From IMG/VR virus record IMGVR_UViG_3300025810_000077, positions 1-24,689 of that record: 24,689 nt of DNA. One strand, 5' to 3'. The notes beneath the pieces were generated by a model that worked only from the letters and a program-made list of their open reading frames with translations, had not been told where the DNA came from and made no database searches. This document shows positions 2,092 to 24,689 of this stretch, piece after piece. The stretch is from a virus. The first letter of the stretch is position 1; each line of letters starts with the position of its first letter. The position numbers and the translations under genes were made by a program.

Positions 2092-3696
2092 ATGGCTATT
2101 ACCCGACCCACTGGCGACCAACTAAGATTTAACTCTTCCGCAAACGGAGAGCTAATCCTTGACGCCTACCTAGAGGCCGCCGAAAAAGGTGGCCGTCAAC
2201 TTGGCGACCTCATCTCCGACATCTTCGATTCATCGGGAGAGTACCGCACAGACATATTCCAGTTCCGCGAAGACCCATCTAACCTTGGCATAATGCAAGT
2301 ACGCATTGGAACCTTCACGGGAGCCAACGACGGCTGGGTAAATCTATCCAACACTGACTTCAACACCATCACCCAAACAGTCCTTGGCTACAAAAACTCT
2401 GCTGAGACAGCTTCTAACACCGCAACCACAAAAGCGGGCGAGGCAAGTACCAGCGCAAGCAACGCATCTACCAGTGAGTCGAACGCCTCAACTAGTGCAA
2501 GTAATGCTTCAACATCTGAATCCAACGCATCAACTTCCGCATCCAACGCGGCAACAAGCGCAAGTAACGCATCCACTAGTGAGTCAAATGCGTCTGGGTC
2601 TGCTTCCACAGCATCAACTCACGCAAACACAGCCCAAGGGTTCAGAGACACAGCATCAACTCACGCAACCACCGCAACCACAAAAGCTGGTGAAGCCAGC
2701 ACTAGCGCAAGCAACGCATCAACCTCCGAAGGCAACGCATCGACCTCGGCATCAACTGCCACAACCCAAGCTGGCATCGCAACAACAAAAGCTGGAGAAG
2801 CGGCAACCTCTGCATCAGCCGCCTCAACAAGTGCAAGTAACGCCGCAACATCAGAAACAAACGCCGCGGCATCCCTGACTTCATTCGATGACAAATATCT
2901 CGGAGCCAAGTCTTCCGTTCCGTCTACAGATAACAATGGTAATACACTCGGCGGCAGTGATACTGGAACGCTTTATTTCAACACGACCTCAAATAAGATG
3001 TTCGTCTGGAACGGAAGTTCGTTTGCAGAGACAGGCTCTGCCGTAAACGGCACATCCAACCGCGCCAGCTTTACGGCTACAGCAAACCAGACGACCTTCG
3101 CCATCAACTACGACGTTGGCTATGTAGACTGCTACATAAATGGAGTGAAGCTATCCCCTGCCGACATCACGGCAACCAATGGCTCCCAAGTAGTTCTCGC
3201 ATCTGGAGCCGCTGTCGGGGATCAGATCGACCTCATTGCATACGGAGCTTTCGCTCTAGCGAACGTCTACACACAAACACAAACCTACACGAAAACAGAA
3301 GTAGACAACCTTCTCACCCCGAAAGCCACAACCACAGACCTTGCGACGACTAACACAAATCTGGCTACCACAAACACTAACCTCGCTACGACAAACACCA
3401 ATGTCACCAGCTTGACTTCAACCGTAGCCACAAAAGCCCCATTAGCCAGCCCAAATTTCTCAGGCACTCCGCAAATTGGCGGTGCAAATATTCCAGTTGT
3501 AACAGGGCATATTGCAAATATTTCTGCTGGGGCAAACGGCTCAATTCCTTATCAGACAGGAAGCAATGCAACAACTTTTCTAGGCATTGGTTCTACTGAC
3601 CAAGTTTTAAAAGTTGCTGGCGGTGTTCCTACTTGGGCAGATGCTTCCGCTGGGGGAACTTCTAATTCAAAAGCATACTTTTTCGGATCAATGTAA
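2092..3696 (+). CDS. Tail fibre 1, Ser/Ala/Thr-repeat shaft
   Basis: A 534 aa modular fibre. Residues 1-95 match the N-terminal domain of fibre 2 (13983-15539) in the pattern LG-[DE]-L...[LI]FDS...RVGT[FY]T...GW, so this is probably the mounting domain. Residues about 101-262 are a low-complexity shaft of STSASNA-type heptads, as in lambda Stf-like fibres. Residues about 265-320 (YLGAK...LYFNTTSNKMFVWNGSSF) are a common fibre segment. Residues about 322-393 are a beta module with 'YINGVKL', also found twice in fibre 2. Residues about 416-441 repeat TTNTNLA. The C-terminal part (SIPYQT...QVLKV...PTWAD) is paralogous to the protein at 4605-4994. The start has no strong Shine-Dalgarno. The last 200 bases become AT-rich like the downstream block, suggesting a mosaic join. 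Confidence 0.88.
   Translation: MAITRPTGDQLRFNSSANGELILDAYLEAAEKGGRQLGDLISDIFDSSGEYRTDIFQFREDPSNLGIMQVRIGTFTGANDGWVNLSNTDFNTITQTVLGYKNSAETASNTATTKAGEASTSASNASTSESNASTSASNASTSESNASTSASNAATSASNASTSESNASGSASTASTHANTAQGFRDTASTHATTATTKAGEASTSASNASTSEGNASTSASTATTQAGIATTKAGEAATSASAASTSASNAATSETNAAASLTSFDDKYLGAKSSVPSTDNNGNTLGGSDTGTLYFNTTSNKMFVWNGSSFAETGSAVNGTSNRASFTATANQTTFAINYDVGYVDCYINGVKLSPADITATNGSQVVLASGAAVGDQIDLIAYGAFALANVYTQTQTYTKTEVDNLLTPKATTTDLATTNTNLATTNTNLATTNTNVTSLTSTVATKAPLASPNFSGTPQIGGANIPVVTGHIANISAGANGSIPYQTGSNATTFLGIGSTDQVLKVAGGVPTWADASAGGTSNSKAYFFGSM
2402..2880 (+). repeat. Coding heptad repeats of fibre 1 shaft
   Basis: Degenerate 21-base units encode S-N-A-S-T-S-[AE]-type heptads, interrupted around 2600-2680 by a less regular segment. 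The block TTKAGEASTSASNASTSE appears twice (near 2429-2475 and 2680-2730) with many synonymous differences between copies. It is a protein repeat inside a gene, not a spacer array. Confidence 0.85.
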
Positions 3697-3706
3697 GGAT
3701 TAAAAA

Positions 3707-4021
3707 ATGGCATCAGGAATTTTGGGTCAAACAGACATAACAAGCACAAATACGGACACAAGTATTTATACTGTGCCAAGCAGTACAACTGCATCTCTAA
3801 CGTTGTCACTGGTAAATCGAAATACAACAGTAGCCAAAATCAGAGTTGGTCTTTGTGCTTCTGGATCGATTGGGAATGCTGAGTTCATCGAATATGAAAC
3901 TAGTTTAGGACCAAAAGCTGTTTTAGAGCGAACAGGAATTGTCATGCAAGCAACTAAACAGCTTGTAGTCAGAACAGACACGGCAAATATATCTGCCTGT
4001 GCTTTTGGATTTGAGGAGTAA
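3707..4021 (+). CDS. Small beta-sandwich structural protein near fibre
   Basis: A 104 aa protein with AAGGA upstream of the ATG. It contains 'YTVPSSTTASLTLSLVNR' near residues 23-40, 'AEFIEYETSL' near 61-70, 'VLERTGIVM' near 75-83 and ends in 'FGFEE'. I associate this pattern (YTVP, IEY, VLERTG, FG[IF]EE) with small beta-rich virion accessory proteins near tail fibres in aquatic phages; that is from memory. It has no signal peptide or membrane segment. The two cassette proteins at 4026 and 6729 also carry YTVP but otherwise differ. A fibre-associated or virion-surface role is the best guess. Confidence 0.72.
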   Translation: MASGILGQTDITSTNTDTSIYTVPSSTTASLTLSLVNRNTTVAKIRVGLCASGSIGNAEFIEYETSLGPKAVLERTGIVMQATKQLVVRTDTANISACAFGFEE

Positions 4022-4025
4022 ATTT

Positions 4026-4355
4026 ATGGGTAGATCAATTGTTGAAATACGAAATCCAGACACGCAAATTTCTGCAACTGCCAATTCTGCAAATGCCGTT
4101 GTATACACCGTTCCGGCTGGAAGACGATTTCGCGGCTATTGTTCAAATCAATTCGCATCGGAGCTTAGTTCAAACTATTACACGGCTTTAGTCTTTAATT
4201 CGGTTGAGGTAAAACATCGAAGCGGTCCCGGCGCGGAAAACAAGACTGAGTATACGATGAACTCAGTGGAAGTAACTTTGCTGGCTGGAGCATCTGTTAA
4301 AGTTGATGGACAGGGCAACCATACATATGTTTGGGGAGTAGAAAGCGATGCTTAG
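4026..4355 (+). CDS. YTVP beta protein, cassette copy A
   Basis: A 109 aa protein; the ATG at 4026 is chosen because GAGGAG at 4013-4018 sits 7 bases before it. The core reads QI-x-ATA...VVYTVPAGRRFRGY...SN, then VEVKH, VTLLAGASVKV and a C-terminal 'TYVWGVESDA'. It is clearly paralogous to the protein at 6729-7070 (VVYTVPEGRKFVGW, LTLLAGTTVKV, VYVFGVESDA). It is probably a small all-beta virion or fibre-tip protein. The last bases overlap the next gene by 8 nt, an arrangement preserved in the second copy. No enzyme motif is visible. Confidence 0.75.
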   Translation: MGRSIVEIRNPDTQISATANSANAVVYTVPAGRRFRGYCSNQFASELSSNYYTALVFNSVEVKHRSGPGAENKTEYTMNSVEVTLLAGASVKVDGQGNHTYVWGVESDA

Positions 4356-4608
4356 AAGAACCATTAATGATGTTGAGTATGAAATTGTCTGTGAATTTTA
4401 TGACAGCGGTGAAAGTTCATCGATTGCCAAAACAATAGGGGAAAATTCGGTCAACACCTATCGGCTTACAGTCGGCGCAAAAAATCCACTTACACAAATT
4501 TCATTTAATAAAGATATGGATGCTTTGCAAGCGTATGTAACGAGTAACGATGAGTTTTTGTGGAATGATTATTGGGAAGATCCTGTCGAGGAATCGGAGA
4601 AACGATGA
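4348..4608 (+). CDS. Cassette partner protein, copy A
   Basis: An 86 aa protein with an acidic tail, overlapping the YTVP gene by 8 nt; its ribosome site GGAG lies at 4335-4338. Conserved with the copy at 7063-7326: YEIV near residue 10, 'NTYRL' near 36, 'NPLTQ' near 46-50, 'ALQAYVTSNDE..WNDYWEDP' near the C-terminus. Position directly after a candidate adhesion protein, strict pairing and small acidic nature would fit a chaperone or complex partner, but no known chaperone family is recognised. Its TGA overlaps the next ATG. Confidence 0.72.
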   Translation: MLRRTINDVEYEIVCEFYDSGESSSIAKTIGENSVNTYRLTVGAKNPLTQISFNKDMDALQAYVTSNDEFLWNDYWEDPVEESEKR

Positions 4609-4994
4609 CTAGAGCAAGAGATCTCGCAGACGGAGCCTTATACAAGATCACCCCGTCTACATCTGGGAACTTACTAACCAGCGACGGCAGTAACTGGACA
4701 AGTGCCACACCTCCTGTCGAGCTTCCCGCACACGGTGCAGATGGCAACATCCTCACATCGACTGGCAGTGCATGGATAAGCGAAACCCCAGCCGCGCAAC
4801 CGACACACCTTCCCGTAACAGGCGGCAGTGCGGGAACCATCCCCTATCAGACAGCCGTCAACCAGACAGCCCATACAGCCGTTGGCACGGCGGGTCAGGT
4901 GTTGCAGTCAAACGCGACAAGCGCACCCACATGGGTGGACAAAAGCGCGGTCGCTACGCCGACAGGCGTGGCTACAGTAATGAAGTTCAGCTAG
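4605..4994 (+). CDS. Fibre-tip-like repeat protein
   Basis: A 129 aa protein beginning 'MTRARDLADG'; the ATG at 4605 overlaps the previous TGA (ATGA), and GGAG at 4596-4599 is well spaced. It holds three fibre repeats: GNLLTSDGSNWTSATPP, GNILTSTGSAWISETPA, and a GQVLQSNATSAPTWVD unit after 'GTIPYQTAVNQ'. The last unit is paralogous to the C-terminus of fibre 1 (SIPYQT...QVLKV...PTWAD). It is GC-richer than its immediate neighbours, so it may come from a different donor or be a relict of the fibre gene. Likely fibre-associated. Confidence 0.75.
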   Translation: MTRARDLADGALYKITPSTSGNLLTSDGSNWTSATPPVELPAHGADGNILTSTGSAWISETPAAQPTHLPVTGGSAGTIPYQTAVNQTAHTAVGTAGQVLQSNATSAPTWVDKSAVATPTGVATVMKFS

Positions 4995-5003
4995 GAGAAT
5001 AAA

Positions 5004-6716
5004 ATGGCAGATCAGGTCAAACAGTTGGCGTTTAAACAGTTCACCGCCAGTGAGCTAGTGGCAGGGAGTGCCGCAAATGTGTTAACCACAGATGCCTCTA
5101 CGCATTACGTTATCAAGTCAATTGAAGCAACCCAAGGAGACAATGATTCCGCTGTGATTGCGACTGCTACTCTTGGACTGACGGCTGGTTTAGGCACTGG
5201 TCAATATGCAAGTTTAGGCACTGTAGCCAAAAAAGATCGGGTGGGATTAGGAGGAGGAAGCGCGATCATGGATGCGTCTTCAACGCTCACGATACGTCCT
5301 ACTGCTACAACAATAGATTTTCTTGATGTTAAAGCTCACTCGCAGTTAGAAACCACTGGGGGAACTCCTAGCGGAAATTATGTAACTGCTATAGACCCGA
5401 CTGTGAACGGAAAAGAAGAGCCTACCCTGCACACAGAAACAACGGTAAATAAAACAGGTACAACCTATTCTGGAAGTGCTGCGGCTTCTGGATATGATTC
5501 ACTCCAAGGCTACCCAAGTGGCAATTACAGAATTTATCACACGAATGCAAACGGAGTTAATCTTATCCTTAATTTTCAAGGGGGTACAACCAGTGGCGTG
5601 GCATTCGCAGTTTGGAATGCAGATGATGGTACAAACTATGGTTATTATAATAGCTCATATGACAGAGCAATTTTTGACGGTAAAAGATACATTTTTTGGG
5701 CGTATGTTGACGGTCAAACTAATATGCGAATTAGATGGTATGATTTGGATGAATCAACCACAAATTTAGCGGCGGCTAATACTACAGGCGGCGGTAGTGG
5801 AAATAATTTTTACCACGGTCAAACTGCGGGCATTAGTTCTGGATTTCAAAGCAGAACTTCTTACGACAATATTCTTAATGCTTTTTATCAAAACCGTCAC
5901 ACAAATAACAAACGATATTTTACTGGATTCAGTGGAAGTAATAATAGATTTTGGTTAGTGGAATTGCCAGACACATTGACCAATGATGCGTCCACAACGC
6001 CAGCCCCAAAATGGATTTATCTTTCTAGCCCTTCGGCAAGTTCGTCTGGTGCGACTGATCCATTTGGCACAAATAGTAACTCTTACAACTTGGTTTATTT
6101 AATTAAGAATTATGCAACGGCCACCACAGAAACTCAACTTCAGCTAACTTATGACCCTGTTATCAGTCGTTATATGCTTTGGTACTCGAAAGATAACAAC
6201 CTATGGTATGCTTTTAGTTTTACGCAAGCGGATATTGATGGCACAAGTCAAGGTGGTTTGTTGAGTCCCACTGGCAGTGATGGGATAAGAACAATAGCAC
6301 AGGCTAATGCAAGTAAAATAAATATTGATTCTAATGTTACTGTAAATGGTGGCGGAAATAATCTAGCCATAAATGTTGGTTCGGCTAGTGCCGCTGTCGC
6401 CAACCTCTCTGGGGTACACGCTGGGGAAAGCCCCTCTGAAGACGTATCCCCATGTTACATAGATGGAGCGAATTTTTATTTCAGAGATAACTCTACTGGG
6501 GCGACAGCACAAAAAGTTGTCAAACTAGATATGAGTGACGTAAAACCAGCTAACGTTACAAATTTGATGCCAAATACAACCATACCCAGCAATGTTTTAA
6601 GGCATAATATCTTTGTAAGTATTGCCGCCCCAAATTCAACAACAATCGCAAGCCGCACATATACAAAAGCTCCATCACTTAAAGTGAGGGTGAGCGGTAT
6701 ATTGTCAGATCAATAA
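5004..6716 (+). CDS. Large putative receptor-binding protein
   Basis: A 570 aa protein with AGGAG upstream of the ATG. Residues about 1-115 form a beta-rich Thr/Ala/Gly domain (HYVIKSIEATQ, TATLGLTAG). Residues about 165-460 are rich in Tyr, Trp, Phe, Asn and Gly, with repeated short aromatic strands such as 'YGYYNSSYDRAIFDGKRYIFWAY', which suggests a propeller-like or jelly-roll glycan-binding fold. The C-terminus ends 'KVRVSGILSDQ'. There is no catalytic motif I can name, so depolymerase activity is not supported. Base composition is strongly AT-rich. It is flanked on both sides by copies of the YTVP cassette, making it the likely centre of a host-recognition unit. Function is inferred from context. 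Confidence 0.62.
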   Translation: MADQVKQLAFKQFTASELVAGSAANVLTTDASTHYVIKSIEATQGDNDSAVIATATLGLTAGLGTGQYASLGTVAKKDRVGLGGGSAIMDASSTLTIRPTATTIDFLDVKAHSQLETTGGTPSGNYVTAIDPTVNGKEEPTLHTETTVNKTGTTYSGSAAASGYDSLQGYPSGNYRIYHTNANGVNLILNFQGGTTSGVAFAVWNADDGTNYGYYNSSYDRAIFDGKRYIFWAYVDGQTNMRIRWYDLDESTTNLAAANTTGGGSGNNFYHGQTAGISSGFQSRTSYDNILNAFYQNRHTNNKRYFTGFSGSNNRFWLVELPDTLTNDASTTPAPKWIYLSSPSASSSGATDPFGTNSNSYNLVYLIKNYATATTETQLQLTYDPVISRYMLWYSKDNNLWYAFSFTQADIDGTSQGGLLSPTGSDGIRTIAQANASKINIDSNVTVNGGGNNLAINVGSASAAVANLSGVHAGESPSEDVSPCYIDGANFYFRDNSTGATAQKVVKLDMSDVKPANVTNLMPNTTIPSNVLRHNIFVSIAAPNSTTIASRTYTKAPSLKVRVSGILSDQ

Positions 6717-6728
6717 AGGAGATAAAAA

Positions 6729-7070
6729 ATGTTAACACCAATTGATGATGCCCCACCAGTAGCGGGAGCAACGGTACAAGCCGATAAACAAATTGCGGCA
6801 ACAGCGCAAAACTCTAACACAGTCGTTTATACTGTCCCAGAGGGCAGAAAATTTGTTGGTTGGGCTTCAAATTCCAATTCACAAAATGGGTCGTATTGGG
6901 CGCAACTTGAAGCAGGTGGCGTTGCGGTTCGTCATTTTAGCCAATTTTCTTACAACCCAGCTAACTATCAAACCATAGATTCGCCAGTGCTAACCCTGTT
7001 AGCAGGTACAACTGTCAAGGTTGGTAACGGAAATACTGTTTATGTTTTTGGAGTAGAGAGCGATGCTTAA
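6729..7070 (+). CDS. YTVP beta protein, cassette copy B
   Basis: A 113 aa paralog of the protein at 4026-4355. AAGGAG precedes the ATG. Shared features are QIAATA, VVYTVPEGRKFVGW, SN after it, V-x-V-x-H, LTLLAGTTVKV and the exact C-terminus GVESDA. The N-terminus is about a dozen residues longer (MLTPIDDAPPVAG). The middle third differs strongly between copies, and the two ends are conserved, which is the pattern expected when a variable loop region is under host-driven selection. It overlaps the next gene by 8 nt exactly as in copy A. Confidence 0.75.
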   Translation: MLTPIDDAPPVAGATVQADKQIAATAQNSNTVVYTVPEGRKFVGWASNSNSQNGSYWAQLEAGGVAVRHFSQFSYNPANYQTIDSPVLTLLAGTTVKVGNGNTVYVFGVESDA

Positions 7071-7326
7071 ACGAAATATTAAATTTGAAACATATGAAAT
7101 TGTTGCATCGTTTTATGATGATGGACAGGCAAATGCTATTGCTCGAACAATAGTAGAAGAGGGCGAAACCCCTGTTAATACATACCGTTTGCGAGTTGGA
7201 GCGCGAAATCCACTTACGCAAGTGCCATTTAATGGAAACGAAAATGCATTGCATGATTATTTATTAACAAATGATGAAACAATTTGGGATGCTTATTGGG
7301 AAGACCCAGAGCCAGAGACGGAGTAA
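7063..7326 (+). CDS. Cassette partner protein, copy B
   Basis: An 87 aa paralog of the protein at 4348-4608: YEIV, 'NTYRLRVGARNPLTQVPFN', 'ALHDYLLTNDETIWDAYWEDP' and an acidic end EPETE. The overlap region with the upstream YTVP gene differs at one base in 20 from copy A (7050-7069 against 4335-4354). The conserved pairing argues for a two-protein unit. The family is unknown to me. Confidence 0.72.
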   Translation: MLKRNIKFETYEIVASFYDDGQANAIARTIVEEGETPVNTYRLRVGARNPLTQVPFNGNENALHDYLLTNDETIWDAYWEDPEPETE

Positions 7327-7329
7327 CAG

Positions 7330-7371
7330 ATGATCACAGTCGAAGAAACCACCACAGAAGAAGGAGAATAG
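7330..7371 (+). CDS. Possible 13 aa acidic mini-ORF
   Basis: ATG at 7330 with GGAG at 7320-7323 and a 6-base spacer encodes MITVEETTTEEGE. The ribosome site of the next gene (AAGGAG) lies inside its last codons. It could be a translated acidic peptide, a coupling leader, or simply a chance ORF. Its acidic Thr/Glu composition resembles the tails of the cassette partner proteins. The length gives little statistical support. Confidence 0.3.
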   Translation: MITVEETTTEEGE

Positions 7372-7373
7372 AA

Positions 7374-7520
7374 ATGGGAATGACGCCTGCTGAAGTCGAG
7401 TACAAGAAGATGTTGAAAGCATCCAACATGTCTCGTAACTCTACAATCAAAGAAGGTTCTTTGGTTCAAACCCTTGGCAACAAATCCCCAAAGAAACCAA
7501 AGGGAAAACTAAAAGCTTGA
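7374..7520 (+). CDS. Small basic hypothetical protein (48 aa)
   Basis: Starts at the ATG after AAGGAG (7361-7366). A longer frame exists upstream but overlaps the previous genes without its own ribosome site. Sequence begins 'MGMTPAEVEYKKMLKAS' and ends in a Lys/Pro-rich basic tail (KSPKKPKGKLKA). It shares its stop TGA with the TTG start of the next gene. No family recognised. A basic tail of this type could bind nucleic acid, but that is a guess. Confidence 0.6.
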   Translation: MGMTPAEVEYKKMLKASNMSRNSTIKEGSLVQTLGNKSPKKPKGKLKA

Positions 7521-7834
7521 GCCTGACGCAAGCGGAGAGACAGCTAAAAGCAATCAGACAACTGTCTAAGACTTCTGGCTGGAAAGTTATCGAACAAATT
7601 ATGCGCGACGAAATTGTCGCTCTTGCTCTGCAAACCGCAAAGAACCCGAAGAAGAGCCCCGAAGAAACCGCCTTCTACGCTGGCTGTCTACAAGCCAGCG
7701 AGAACCTCCTGAACATCATACCCAACCTTGAAGCCAAGCTTCAGGGCGAAGCCCAACTACAGTCATGGGAAAACAGGGACGACCCCAACCCCATTGATGA
7801 TCCATTATCCCTGCATCAACAACTTCAACAATAA
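7517..7834 (+). CDS. Small helical protein before scaffold
   Basis: A 105 aa protein with a TTG start inside the overlap TTGA; an upstream purine run is present but distant (about 13 bases), so initiation is probably coupled. Residues about 5-35 (ERQLKAIRQLSKTSGWKVI...IMRDEIVAL) and 45-75 are predicted helices. The pattern L-x-x-L-x-x-x-x-GWKVIEQI resembles small conserved proteins before scaffold genes in podoviruses; this is from memory. Its last 60 bases contain a GGGACGAC motif (7776-7783), encoding part of NRDDPN. Function unknown. Confidence 0.65.
   Translation: MSLTQAERQLKAIRQLSKTSGWKVIEQIMRDEIVALALQTAKNPKKSPEETAFYAGCLQASENLLNIIPNLEAKLQGEAQLQSWENRDDPNPIDDPLSLHQQLQQ
7776..7783 (+). promoter_or_regulatory. 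GGGACGAC leader motif, copy 2 (before scaffold)
   Basis: An exact GGGACGAC followed by CCCA, inside the 3' end of the preceding gene and 89 bases before the scaffold ATG. Preceded by AAAACA, like copy 3. Function unknown. Confidence 0.5.
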
Positions 7835-7864
7835 TCGCCGCGCAAGCCGCGAAAGGAAAACACA

Positions 7865-8905
7865 ATGGCCATAGATCCAAACGACCCAATAGCACGCATT
7901 GCCGCAGGCCAACTTGGCCCAGCCGCACAACCTGCCCAAGCCGCACAACCCGCACCACCGCCGCCACCCCCTGCCCCAGTAGAGGCTCCTCCAACAATGG
8001 AAGAGACGGCGCAGACAGATGCCGCACCGAAGACAGAAGCAGACGCCTCAAACCAAGAGCCGTACAGCTTCATTGAAGTAGATTACAAAGGACAAAAGCG
8101 TAACTTTACGCCCAACCAAATTACAGGAACCTTGGAAAGATACACCGCACTTAACGACAAACATGCTGGCGTGAAGCCAATACTGGATGTCGTTGACAAC
8201 ATGGTGAAGACCACAGGTCAACCGCAGGAAAAAGTCATGAGCGACATGCTCTCACTCATGAAAGCTGGCCTGTCGAAGAACACTCAAATGGGTGGAGACG
8301 GACGACCATCTCAACGACCAGCAGAAGGCACTCCCGCAAGTCAAAACAACGACAACGCGCCCGACCCATTCGCTAACTGGGAAAGCGAAAACGATGTAGC
8401 TCTCCCCCCTGGCTACAGGGAGCAGGCGCAGACAATGGCGCAGATGCAACAGGGCATGGCCCAAATGCAGGGCATGATGCAACAGGTTCTACAGAGCGCA
8501 CAAGGAACAACGCAAGCCGCTGTAGACAAAGAAGCTGCTGCCGGACAAATGCAAAATCAGGCGATGCAAGAGCGCACCAAAATGAACCTTGATCAAGCCG
8601 CAGAAAAGTACGGGCTTACCGAGGAAGACGCTCCAAGATTCCAGACCTTCCTAGCAGAGCGTGGCTTCATGCTTCAGGAAATGAACGATAAGGAACTAAC
8701 TGAAAGAATGGTTGGCGACTATGTCGCCGCTAAGAACGGCCCCGAACTCGCTCGTCTCCAAGAAATCAACGAACGAAGACAGGCGTTCCAAGGAACGATG
8801 GCTCCAACACCAGCCGCTGGTGCAGGCCCAGCTCCATCTGGCCAAGACGACATGCTCAACAGGATGACCGATAAGGCGTTTTCCAAGCAAGCAGGGATGG
8901 CATAA
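7865..8905 (+). CDS. Scaffolding protein candidate
   Basis: A 346 aa protein two genes' worth upstream of the capsid protein, with GAAAGGA before its ATG. Residues about 15-45 are Ala/Pro/Gln-rich with a poly-Pro run. Residues about 70-95 form an ordered segment 'IEVDYKGQKRNFTPNQI'. Residues about 180-235 are a Gln/Met-rich helix. Residues about 240-300 are charged helices, followed by an Ala/Pro linker and a short C-terminal helix ending 'DKAFSKQAGMA'. It has no Cys or Trp-rich core. Disordered ends, a helical centre and acidic to neutral character directly before the capsid gene are typical of phage scaffolds, whose C-terminal helix contacts the coat protein. Identity rests on composition and position. 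Its TAA overlaps the next ATG by one base. Confidence 0.75.
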   Translation: MAIDPNDPIARIAAGQLGPAAQPAQAAQPAPPPPPPAPVEAPPTMEETAQTDAAPKTEADASNQEPYSFIEVDYKGQKRNFTPNQITGTLERYTALNDKHAGVKPILDVVDNMVKTTGQPQEKVMSDMLSLMKAGLSKNTQMGGDGRPSQRPAEGTPASQNNDNAPDPFANWESENDVALPPGYREQAQTMAQMQQGMAQMQGMMQQVLQSAQGTTQAAVDKEAAAGQMQNQAMQERTKMNLDQAAEKYGLTEEDAPRFQTFLAERGFMLQEMNDKELTERMVGDYVAAKNGPELARLQEINERRQAFQGTMAPTPAAGAGPAPSGQDDMLNRMTDKAFSKQAGMA

Positions 8906-12441: not shown

Positions 12442-13971
12442 ATGGCTACCAAATCGCCCACACTTATAAAGTCTAACCTCTCGGCTTACTTTGGCTTTAA
12501 GGGCATCGACCGTTCGCGTCCAATCATCGGCATGGATGACGGAAAGAAACAGCCCCTCTTCCGTCTCAACAACGGCCACTCCAAGTGGACAGGTACAATC
12601 GTCAGGGACACTGGATTACAAGTCAGAAAGAAAGTGCCAGAAGGAGAAATAGTTCATCAAAACTTCGTCAACAGAACAGGTCTTGGTTACGCAGTGCAAG
12701 ATGGTAAAAGCATTTCACTGTACACCGAGCTTTCTAACGCAAGTGTAGTCGACCTTTACTCAACCAACCAACCAGTAAGTTCCGTGATCTATGCAGGCAA
12801 ACTTAACTTTATGTCTGCTGGCTTTCCCATATATGCAACTGATGGCTACAGCTTCGTCAAAAACGCATCAACAGTCACCCCAGCTTTTGGGGTGGCCATT
12901 GAAGGTCGACTGTATGTAGCTGGAATACCCACCCTTCCCGCAGAGATCAGGGTATCGCGTCTATTCACAAACGATGGCGACGAGCAAATCTTTCTAGACG
13001 AGGAAACCGCAACCACCACAGCCAACCGCGCTGACTTCCTAGACCTCTCAAACGTGATAGGAACAGCAGATGAGATCACAGGTCTTGCCAGATTCGAAAC
13101 AAACCGTCTCGCAATCTTCACGAATGACCAATGCGTTGTCTACAAGGTCGACCCAGACGTAGCCTTGTGGGAAATAGACACGAGAGCAAACGTACAGTTA
13201 GGAACAGTGGCGCACAATGCTATAGCTCAAGTTGGCAGTGATATAATTTTCTGCTCACGACACGGAGTTCACAGTCTCATACGGTCTTCACAAAACGGTA
13301 TATCAATCGAGACACGAACCCTGTCATATGAAATAGAAGATCTTTACAAAGAATTTTTGAGAGCTTGCATTGGCCCTCGCTTTGTAAACTGCACCTACGA
13401 CCAAGACCTTGGCAGGCTACATATCTTCTTCCCAATGGCTGATGGGTTACACAAAACCCTAGTTGGTGAGTTTAGGCGTGGCTACGAAAGCCTGACATGG
13501 TCAACATCAGACACAGGAGCATCTAGATGTGGCGCATTCCTAGCCGGAAGCATGACATTCGGGACAGCATTTACAACCTACAACAGATTAGACGAACTTT
13601 TAGAACTCAATCCACAAGACGATCTCACAGATGACTTCATTCGCCCTAAATTCCTAGTTGAAACTCCCATACTTTGGCATGGCCTAATCGATGAAATAAA
13701 GGAAAGCCGCGCTCTAGTCATTCAAGCATCAGGGAGTGGCACGCTCCTCATCACCGCATTTGATGAAGAAGGGGGAGAAGTCCTGTCCGAAACTATTGCA
13801 ATCGAAAGACGGGACGACAACCCCGAAGGTTTCCCGTCTGATGCACTTGACGTCCAGTTCCGTATTCCTTTTCAGCTTCGATACAGAGGATTGCAACTGA
13901 AGTTTGAAAGCGTAGACATGGGCGACATTGAAATTCTCGGCTTCGCAGTCGAGCTTAAACAGCCAAGCTAG
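12442..13971 (+). CDS. Tail nozzle / tail tubular protein B-like
   Basis: A 509 aa protein beginning right after the adaptor stop. Beta-rich throughout, with repeated propeller-blade-like strands: 'VIYAGKLNFMSAGFPIYATD', 'VAIEGRLYVAG', 'LARFETNRLAIFTNDQCVVY', 'VGSDIIFCSRHGVHSL', 'DLGRLHIFFPMADG'. The pattern 'L-x-x-F-x-x-[NR]-L-x-[IV]-F' followed by a 'G-x-D-[IV]-x-F-x-S-x-x-G-V-x-S-[LI]' blade is typical of stubby-tail nozzle proteins (T7 gp12, P22 gp10 role). The C-terminus (residues about 400-509) is a beta sandwich-like region. A GGGACGAC copy lies in its 3' end at 13811-13818. Confidence 0.75.
   Translation: MATKSPTLIKSNLSAYFGFKGIDRSRPIIGMDDGKKQPLFRLNNGHSKWTGTIVRDTGLQVRKKVPEGEIVHQNFVNRTGLGYAVQDGKSISLYTELSNASVVDLYSTNQPVSSVIYAGKLNFMSAGFPIYATDGYSFVKNASTVTPAFGVAIEGRLYVAGIPTLPAEIRVSRLFTNDGDEQIFLDEETATTTANRADFLDLSNVIGTADEITGLARFETNRLAIFTNDQCVVYKVDPDVALWEIDTRANVQLGTVAHNAIAQVGSDIIFCSRHGVHSLIRSSQNGISIETRTLSYEIEDLYKEFLRACIGPRFVNCTYDQDLGRLHIFFPMADGLHKTLVGEFRRGYESLTWSTSDTGASRCGAFLAGSMTFGTAFTTYNRLDELLELNPQDDLTDDFIRPKFLVETPILWHGLIDEIKESRALVIQASGSGTLLITAFDEEGGEVLSETIAIERRDDNPEGFPSDALDVQFRIPFQLRYRGLQLKFESVDMGDIEILGFAVELKQPS
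13811..13818 (+). promoter_or_regulatory. GGGACGAC leader motif, copy 5 (before fibre 2)
   Basis: An exact GGGACGAC followed by AACCCC, inside the nozzle gene (encoding part of RRDDNP) and 172 bases before the fibre 2 ATG. Being within coding sequence it could be chance, but it matches the extended pattern. Confidence 0.42.
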
Positions 13972-22297: not shown

Positions 22298-24689
22298 GTG
22301 GCCAACTACAATGAAGACGATATAGACTTTGACGCAATCATAAACATGCGTCCAACAAATGACACAAGTGTCCCTACTTTTGATTACTCAGACAACATCA
22401 ACCCAAAAACAATATTATCCAATCCAAGTTTTCTTGCCGATGTAAGAGACGTTATGGCTTCGCAAGGTCAATTCTTTGACAATGACGAAGACATGATCGA
22501 CGAGTTCTTTTCAGAGCGCAACTGGAGAGATATGAACTTAGCGGCGGCGGCTTTTGGAGACGCTGGAGCCTTGGCTACAGCAAGAGCCGCTCCAGATACT
22601 CGTGAAAAAATGGGTCGAATACAAAAGGTCTTCACACAATACCCCATGTTCTGGCAAGACGGCGGTCGCGGGTGGCTCAAAGGTTTATCCGACGCAGTGC
22701 CTGCGGCACTGCTTGCTGTTGAAAACCTATTCCCTGGAATTTCTGGCTACAAGGTTGGTGCGGCGGCGGCTAAAGCTGGCGCATCAGGACTCGTCAGAGG
22801 CGCTGGAAAAGGTGCCGCCGTAGCCGCTGGAACAGAAGCCATACTGGGCGCTGGCATCAGCGCAACCAACCAAGCAACAGACCTTGTTACTGGAGCGCAA
22901 GATGAGTTCAGCACCGCAGATCTCGCTATAGAAGCTGGCCTTGGCGCTGGCCTCGGAGGAGTTTTGGGTGGCGTCATCGGTGGTGTTGGTGGGGCAATGG
23001 GAGCCAGAACCACACGACAGCAAATGGCAATGCGAGACGTACTCCTTGAAACCAAGGAAGCGCGTCTAAAGGCTGACCCTTCTGCCGACACCTCTGACCT
23101 AGATGAGGAACTAGAAAAAGTATACAGGGCAATGGGCGAAGCGCCAACGATGGCTCCTGACTCTGACACTGAACCAGAACCAGAAGTGACACCAGACGTA
23201 GAAGTTGAAGAGCCAGCACAGCCCAAGTCAATGTTTGATGGCCCTGATGGCTTTGATGCAGTTGACTTCGAGTCAATGGCTCAAGAAGAACTCATTATTG
23301 CAGAAGCAATCAACGATGATTACGGAGGAGAGCTAGGCCAGATAGCAGAGGGCATTGGCAGAGAAAGGCTAAACGATCCAAGCCGCCCTGAAATAAAAGC
23401 TGACTTCAAAGAGTTTACCTTACGCATTGGTAGAGCAGGCAAATACAGAAGCTTGATGGCAAGGAAAGCTGAGTACGACGAGCTATCCGAAAAAATTGCA
23501 TCAGCAAAATCAGCGTCCGAAGTAGCAAAGCTCGAAACAGCTAGAGCAAAGATAGAGGTAAGCCTAAGAGGAATATTAAAAGCAAAGAGGCAAAGTGATT
23601 CCGCACTTGCTGACGCTGTCGATACCCAAGTGGAGGACTTGAGCGAGTTCACAGGAGAGGGATTTAAGAAGAGAACCTCCGAGCCTGAAGCTCCGTTCCA
23701 GCCATCAACAGAAGGTGACTTCCCTACAGCAGATGCTGTTCAGGAGCGCATGTTCCAGTCCGACCTTGAAGGCGCACCTACCCCTGAAGTAGAGACACCA
23801 GCAGAAGCACCAGTTGTCGAAGGACAAGCGTTCACCGCAGACACATTGCCTGAGTTTAAGGACAATGCAGAAGACTTCGTAAATGAAATGCTTTTCGATT
23901 CAGTGCCAACAGTTCGCCAAAATTTCATAAATAGTCTTGATAAGAATGCTAATGATCCTTCGGCCATAATTAAATTTGCAGAGTTAAGAGGGAAAAAATT
24001 AGATCTTGCCGAAACAAAAGCCGCACTACAAAAACTCAAGGGCGAAATGAACACATCCTTCGAGGGCGATACTCCAGACCCAGTATCGAGTGACGCGCCA
24101 AGACTGCAAGGCAAAGAGTTCAAGGCTTACGAAAGCCGTTTAATGAAAGCCGCGTTGAGTGGCCTCGACCTGTCACGAATAGAAGGCGACCAGATCAGGG
24201 AGCAATTCGTCTCTGGACTTATGCGAATTGTAAGAAACTCAAACGATGGCGAACGCCTTGCTCAAGACGTTAGCGAGCCACGGATACGGTCATTCCTAGT
24301 CAATACCGCCAAAGAACGATACAAGATCGCACTTGAAACAAATGACAAAGGAACTGCATCGGCTCTTGGCAAGGACGACGCACAGTTCTTCGACAACAAA
24401 GCGGGCAAACGCATCGGTGGACTGGGTGGCGTAGACAGAACTGGGAGAGTTCAGTCAGGTGACAAGAGTGATCTATCCGAACTGATTGCAGAAGCGGAAA
24501 TCAACGCCGCTTACAACGACACCCTATCGATCAAAGATCAAGAGCTTGGCAAAGAAAAGCCTGTAGTCGTGGAAGCAGTTGCGAAAGCACGCGGAAGGAT
24601 ACGCGCAAACCAAAGCATCAATTCCAAAGACACACGCTACAACGCTGGCGACATCATCCGATGGGACAACGTATCCAAGAAAGCAGAAG
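22298..24689 (+). CDS. Giant virion protein, N-terminal part (runs off window)
   Basis: An ORF of at least 797 codons with no stop before the window end. GTG at 22298 is chosen because GGAG lies 7 bases upstream; the first in-frame ATG is 16 codons later. Residues about 60-130 contain 'MIDEFFSERNWRDMNLAAAA' and 'MFWQDGGRGWLKGLSDAVPA', helical. Residues about 150-235 are Ala/Gly-rich and hydrophobic, ending in a glycine-zipper stretch (EAGLGAGLGGVLGGVIGGVG), a likely membrane-inserting segment. Two acidic Pro-rich linkers follow at about 285-310 and 462-512, separated by charged helices. As the last and longest gene after the ejection candidates, it resembles the large ejected proteins of short-tailed phages, some of which carry a lytic transglycosylase or other enzyme. 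No such domain is visible in the part seen. Confidence 0.8.
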   Translation, partial: MANYNEDDIDFDAIINMRPTNDTSVPTFDYSDNINPKTILSNPSFLADVRDVMASQGQFFDNDEDMIDEFFSERNWRDMNLAAAAFGDAGALATARAAPDTREKMGRIQKVFTQYPMFWQDGGRGWLKGLSDAVPAALLAVENLFPGISGYKVGAAAAKAGASGLVRGAGKGAAVAAGTEAILGAGISATNQATDLVTGAQDEFSTADLAIEAGLGAGLGGVLGGVIGGVGGAMGARTTRQQMAMRDVLLETKEARLKADPSADTSDLDEELEKVYRAMGEAPTMAPDSDTEPEPEVTPDVEVEEPAQPKSMFDGPDGFDAVDFESMAQEELIIAEAINDDYGGELGQIAEGIGRERLNDPSRPEIKADFKEFTLRIGRAGKYRSLMARKAEYDELSEKIASAKSASEVAKLETARAKIEVSLRGILKAKRQSDSALADAVDTQVEDLSEFTGEGFKKRTSEPEAPFQPSTEGDFPTADAVQERMFQSDLEGAPTPEVETPAEAPVVEGQAFTADTLPEFKDNAEDFVNEMLFDSVPTVRQNFINSLDKNANDPSAIIKFAELRGKKLDLAETKAALQKLKGEMNTSFEGDTPDPVSSDAPRLQGKEFKAYESRLMKAALSGLDLSRIEGDQIREQFVSGLMRIVRNSNDGERLAQDVSEPRIRSFLVNTAKERYKIALETNDKGTASALGKDDAQFFDNKAGKRIGGLGGVDRTGRVQSGDKSDLSELIAEAEINAAYNDTLSIKDQELGKEKPVVVEAVAKARGRIRANQSINSKDTRYNAGDIIRWDNVSKKAE

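Follow-up and report, generated by a model that had tools for sequence, protein, structure and literature searches.

A pair of small genes in phage tail-fibre operons is exchanged as a cassette: the body of the first protein (A) and its partner (B) move between phages as one unit, and the leader of A stays with the upstream gene. The exchanged unit is about 530 nt long, its breakpoints lying close to the PDKQI motif of A on one side and to the end of B on the other. Pairs of adhesins and chaperones, together with their transfer between phages, are already known; the movement of the A body and B as a cassette apart from the A leader is new here. The window, by which we mean the whole stretch of DNA analysed, is a 24.7-kb linear virus record (24,689 nt) in which the pair occurs twice, and A1-B1 and A2-B2 appear to occupy the distal end of its tail-fibre operon (Table 1). 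What sets the case apart is the very small size of the exchanged unit, borders that can be read within a few codons, a staying part (the leader) that can be distinguished from the moving part (the body with its putative chaperone), and the occupation of two slots in one phage.

The portal protein of the window is 69% and the major capsid protein 63% identical to the homologous proteins of the Roseobacter (CHUG lineage) phage CRP-810, and the genes near the portal follow the same order (portal, an 88-aa protein, trunk fibre). Because of these identities and of the conserved order, the window is assigned to the CRP-810-type Roseobacter phages (PMC11288001) and is, as judged by sequence, a fragment of a marine podophage of that type. 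A search of CRP-810 for homologues of A, B, tip104 and big570 detected none, and only the trunk fibre matches; CRP-810 instead encodes a 119-aa protein and a 565-aa fibre frame that begins MSKARD. Elsewhere in the window, a 509-aa protein encoded after the capsid gene (12442-13971) shows a weak match to PHROG 5107, a phage amidase family (E 1.5e-5), and a frame at 22298-24688, 797 aa or longer, runs past the right end. An Rfam search of the window returned zero matches, and promoter and terminator scans of it stayed at chance level.

Table 1. Genes of the tail-fibre operon in the window, with the basis of each assignment.
Feature	Position	Strand	Basis
Trunk tail fibre, 534 aa	2092..3696	+	PHROG tail fiber protein, E 1.8e-26
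tip104, 104-aa fibre-tip domain protein	3707..4021	+	PHROG tail fiber protein, E 2.7e-11
A1, putative small tip protein, 109 aa, slot-1 leader MGRS	4026..4355	+	Identity with A2, A profile match, leader comparison
B1, putative dedicated chaperone, 86 aa	4348..4608	+	Identity with B2; family has APC-bearing orthologues
Short fibre-tip gene, 129 aa, MTRARD start	4605..4994	+	Resembles trunk C-terminus and fibre-tip genes of relatives
big570, aromatic-rich, putative receptor binder	5004..6716	+	Homologues precede A-B in nearly all relatives
A2, putative small tip protein, 113 aa; leader 1-17, body 18-113	6729..7070	+	AF2 model; leader/body split
B2, putative dedicated chaperone, 87 aa	7063..7326	+	AF2 pLDDT 91; family evidence as for B1

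From the trunk fibre to B2, the gaps between genes range from -8 to +12 bases. The middle part of the trunk fibre is 57% identical to Roseobacter phage fibres. The tip104 protein, encoded just upstream of A1, also has a YTVP motif and is 88-89% identical in the relatives L045 and L025; homologues with 36-49% identity, annotated as hypothetical, occur in the large cyanophages P-SSM2, P-SSM5, S-CAM1 and S-CAM3. The 129-aa gene had been called a fibre-tip paralog, a fair label since it is about 43-44% similar to the C-terminus of the trunk fibre. Its M[ST]xARD start is common in fibre-tip genes that follow a chaperone-like gene (4605-4994 in the window, L016 3433, L038 7994 and L009 9100), is found in CRP-810 too, and looks as if it were a leader for yet another docking slot. 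A small gene of 92-94 aa stands after large ARD fibre genes (L038 9556-9840, L016 5161-5442, L054 10599-10880), carries GEFTLVDGWxDP near its end and may encode another type of chaperone; a Pfam scan of two copies (L038 and L016) gave no match. Just 3' of B2, a 13-codon ORF (MITVEETTTEEGE; 7331-7372) may be what is left of another small acidic gene. Additionally, a 16-nt inverted repeat, 94% complementary, pairs 3879-3894 in tip104 with 4251-4266 in A1 and may be due to chance.

The original prediction that A1-B1 reappears as A2-B2 was borne out, all coordinates holding and both proteins being paralogous. A1 and A2 are 47% identical over 98 aligned residues (E 1e-23) and B1 and B2 55% over 87 (E 6e-35), with local scores of 193 and 250, respectively, where 2000 shuffles reached at most 52 and 55. 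The 8-base overlap of A and B was confirmed in both pairs, as was the identity of 19 of the 20 bases at the junction. The shared GVESDA end is weaker evidence than it looks, since its last two codons are partly fixed by the overlapping start of B. An independent record (L011) carries both pairs, with 99.8% DNA identity to the window over 8494 nt, which argues against an assembly artefact.

Scanning IMG/VR with B, A and the 570-aa protein (hereafter big, for this protein and its homologues) yielded about 20 further contigs. Most of the contigs are fragmentary. When copies of the pair were counted in other viral contigs, about 20 were found to carry one, nearly always behind a big homologue, and two pairs were seen only here. 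The order big-A-B and the 8-base overlap are kept in all 17 tabulated units. In a profile search of 24 whole records, two A genes were present only in the window and a near-identical record and one A in 21 others, counts that are lower bounds because many of the 24 records are fragments. More remote forms are found in other phages and in contigs that were binned into MAGs of Halobacteriovorax and Neomarinimicrobiota; flanking genes vary widely, which indicates that several phage lineages carry the A-B unit. In one such contig (L053; PBIO01000022, Halobacteriovorax MAG), the fibre unit adjoins a terminase-like gene, so that the contig probably belongs to a phage and calls for caution about its assigned host. 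A tblastn search of 50,697 phage records with A2, B2 and big570 gave no match, and searches with A1 and B1 alone recovered the near-identical record and no other carrier of an A1-B1-like cassette. The copies had been described as lying on both sides of a receptor binder. This is true on the map, but the canonical unit consists of the 570-aa protein with A2 and B2, the place of A1-B1 being the slot that follows the 104-aa tip gene (slot 1).

Comparison of these units divides A into two parts, a leader extending to about PDKQI and a body. The type of leader fits the type of big in 19 of 19 units (the 17 tabulated, L047 and L053): behind a big that ends in DQ the leader is MLTP or MFTP, and behind one that ends in EDRS, EDRT or KETR it is MALT-like. 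For fully independent units, such a match would have a chance of 1e-5; the independence of these 19 is only partial. Mantel correlations of identity were 0.73 for A body with B and 0.59 for big with leader, against 0.26 for big with A body. In AU tests on the A-body data, the big tree was rejected (p 9e-5) and the B tree was not (p 0.11); on the B data, the big tree was strongly rejected and the A-body tree more mildly (p 0.002), which means that the cassette is not perfectly stable. The borders are directly visible in DNA. L053 and L006 share 529 nt at 94% identity, starting at codon 19 of A and finishing where B ends, and no DNA similarity is detectable between their big genes. L006 and L044, like L040 and L039, are 84-86% identical through big into the A leader, after which identity is sharply lost. 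At least three discordances between leader and body are seen (L006/L014 vs L037/L038/L053; L013 vs L016; L042/L047 vs L040).

The second pair in the window had been explained as duplicated and diversified. The pairs are indeed paralogous, but the duplication is less well founded. In L045, L025, L058, L059 and L060, the slot behind tip104 is taken by a longer adhesin-like protein, with an APC chaperone after it; the gene after the tip104 homologue starts MGR in 9 of 10 loci, larger cyanophage-like contigs included. A1 starts MGRS; the window and L045 are 83% identical in DNA through the trunk C-terminus and tip104 as far as position 4037 (codon 4 of A1) and then diverge. Because of this start, and of the other adhesin in the slot of relatives, A1-B1 looks like an A body and a B installed behind a slot-1 leader. 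A tree built jointly from body and B places A2-B2 with pairs from other phages at 96/95 support, and not with A1-B1. The alternative is in-place duplication, in which a single A-B pair gave rise to two within the genome that then diverged, giving alternative specificities, the adhesin and chaperone roles being unchanged. Both pairs do share an operon and a family, and a forced A1-B1/A2-B2 sister group, 8.1 log units worse, was not rejected (AU p 0.13), which leaves this history some probability. Against it stand the grouping of A2-B2, the MGR leader of A1 and the end of the L045 homology at codon 4. Furthermore, the pairs are 61% identical in DNA over their whole length and their longest exact shared word is 12 nt, so that no recent copy was made and a recent homologous duplication is rejected. 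In-place duplication is, in our view, rather unlikely. Since A2-B2 groups with pairs of other phages and A1 has the leader of another slot, the better fit is placement of a cassette into a second slot.

A is probably a small tip protein with a predicted jelly-roll fold. The AlphaFold2 model of A2 is an eight-stranded jelly roll (pLDDT 83); its best Foldseek match, 4dmi (E 6e-3), a pentameric phage protein titled as capsid protein, is a generic fold match, and comparison with nucleoplasmin cores, also jelly rolls, gave a VIA Z of at most 7.4, both matches being suggestive only. Pfam and PHROG searches of A found nothing usable, and PDB sequence-profile searches with A and big gave no useful match. 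No convincing homology emerged when the A profile was compared with tip104, big and two slot-1 adhesins, although the A HMM does match two homologues of tip104 and a further two slot-1 adhesins at 1e-5 to 2e-4. Extended A alignments were too diverse to use in pattern scans. Within A, the conserved stretches YTVPxGRxFxG, LTLLAG and VFGVESDA alternate with variable ones, and the variable regions 45-87 and 98-104 are interleaved with conserved strands. Variable loops at the surface of a tip would be expected to give such an alternation, and the A body may present its variable loops to the receptor. A could instead serve the structure of the fibre, as a cap or decoration protein, and take no part in receptor binding, its swaps reflecting compatibility with big570 as the host receptor binder, or neutral recombination. 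A small, generic jelly roll whose best match is titled as a capsid protein would suit such a part; this reading is nevertheless unlikely in the face of the interleaved variable stretches, the independent evolution of big and A body, and the larger adhesin-like proteins that occupy the A1 slot in relatives.

B1 and B2 matched no family in Pfam and PHROG searches. They lack Phage_tail_APC (PF16778), a domain that stands at the C-terminus of B orthologues, and end in a short acidic tail. The orthologues in L027 and L031 carry PF16778 above the gathering score (E 3e-15 and 4e-16) and have PHROG 'tail fiber assembly' matches; that of L049 also passes the gathering score. Same-position orthologues in L027, L030, L034 and L031 are longer than the window B, and those of L030 and L034, close homologues of L027 B, align with the L027 and L031 proteins throughout. 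As an iterative B HMM drifted into APC-only proteins (extra matches in L025, L030, L039, L040 and L045), short and long B were compared separately: the short-B profile aligns with the N-terminal part of the long, APC-bearing B with an hhalign probability of about 97% (96.8%; E 2e-10). B1 and B2 are homologous to the APC-bearing proteins and share their gene position, the order big-A-B being conserved. Fold searches with B, for which the B2 AF2 model is confident and compact, gave nothing above noise, and a PDB sequence-profile match of the B alignment to 2kz6 was discarded, as it spans the APC part only.

The fused APC domains of the orthologues, together with co-transfer with the A body, suggest a role for B as a dedicated tail-fibre assembly chaperone, the APC domain having been lost or never acquired. 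The proposal of an adhesin with a partner in a tail-fibre locus is well supported, the partner being probably such a chaperone. B might otherwise act as the distal adhesin in its own right, or remain bound to A at the fibre tip as a lasting cap, as with gp38 of S16-like phages. Some fibre accessory proteins stay on the fibre, as stated for Mu and S16 (PMC7289586), and a B that is swapped along with the A body, has a confident, compact fold and is devoid of an APC domain in the window would agree with this. The assembly-chaperone domain of same-position orthologues, and the APC proteins that follow other adhesins of these operons, make it quite improbable.

We consider it probable that the window phage holds two adhesin-chaperone cassettes in two docking slots, in which the leader docks A, B serves the A body, and body and B are exchanged. 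The N-terminal leader, of roughly 10-18 residues, would dock A on the preceding fibre protein; covariation of the leaders points to tip104 as the partner of A1 and big570 as that of A2. B, whose start overlaps the end of A, would fold or assemble the cognate A body. Because it holds the cassette in two slots, the phage could display two tips together, and the two pairs may differ in receptor specificity. More tentatively, and with slightly more doubt than conviction, the arrangement could be a plug-in standard for fibre tips across several marine phage lineages, the leader setting the slot, a ~530-nt unit of body and chaperone, bounded by the PDKQI motif and the end of the chaperone gene, being traded between slots and phages, and one virion bearing several interchangeable tips. 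Cassette swapping would let phages change what they grip on bacteria. If true, the docking place of each tip in uncultured marine phages could be predicted by a simple sequence rule, and nature would supply a compact test of how chaperones stay matched to adhesins.

In phage Mu, S/U and S'/U' swap a variable adhesin part together with its chaperone behind a constant part, by means of an invertible segment and alternative expression. Unlike the Mu alternates, which are inverted and flanked by inverted repeats, the two window pairs share one orientation (+ strand) and one operon, and swaps take place between phages; only two weak inverted repeats were found in 3300-8000, neither flanking the pairs, and the direct orientation of the pairs excludes a Mu-type inversion switch. 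In Alteromonas phage V22, the fibre gp26 binds cells only if co-expressed with gp27 (PMC7289586), and fibre-chaperone modules are common to distantly related marine phages (PMC10579305). Like V22 gp26-gp27 and A5 gp8-gp9 (PMC7289586; PMC10579305), A-B consists of a putative adhesin gene directly followed by that of its partner, and the two are transferred jointly between phages. The V22 and A5 adhesins are fibres of 369-462 aa with chaperones of 195-239 aa that contain DUF4376, whereas A has 109-113 aa and B 86-87 aa with no known domain. In further contrast to V22 and A5, the window phage has two cassettes, and its exchanged segment omits the leader.
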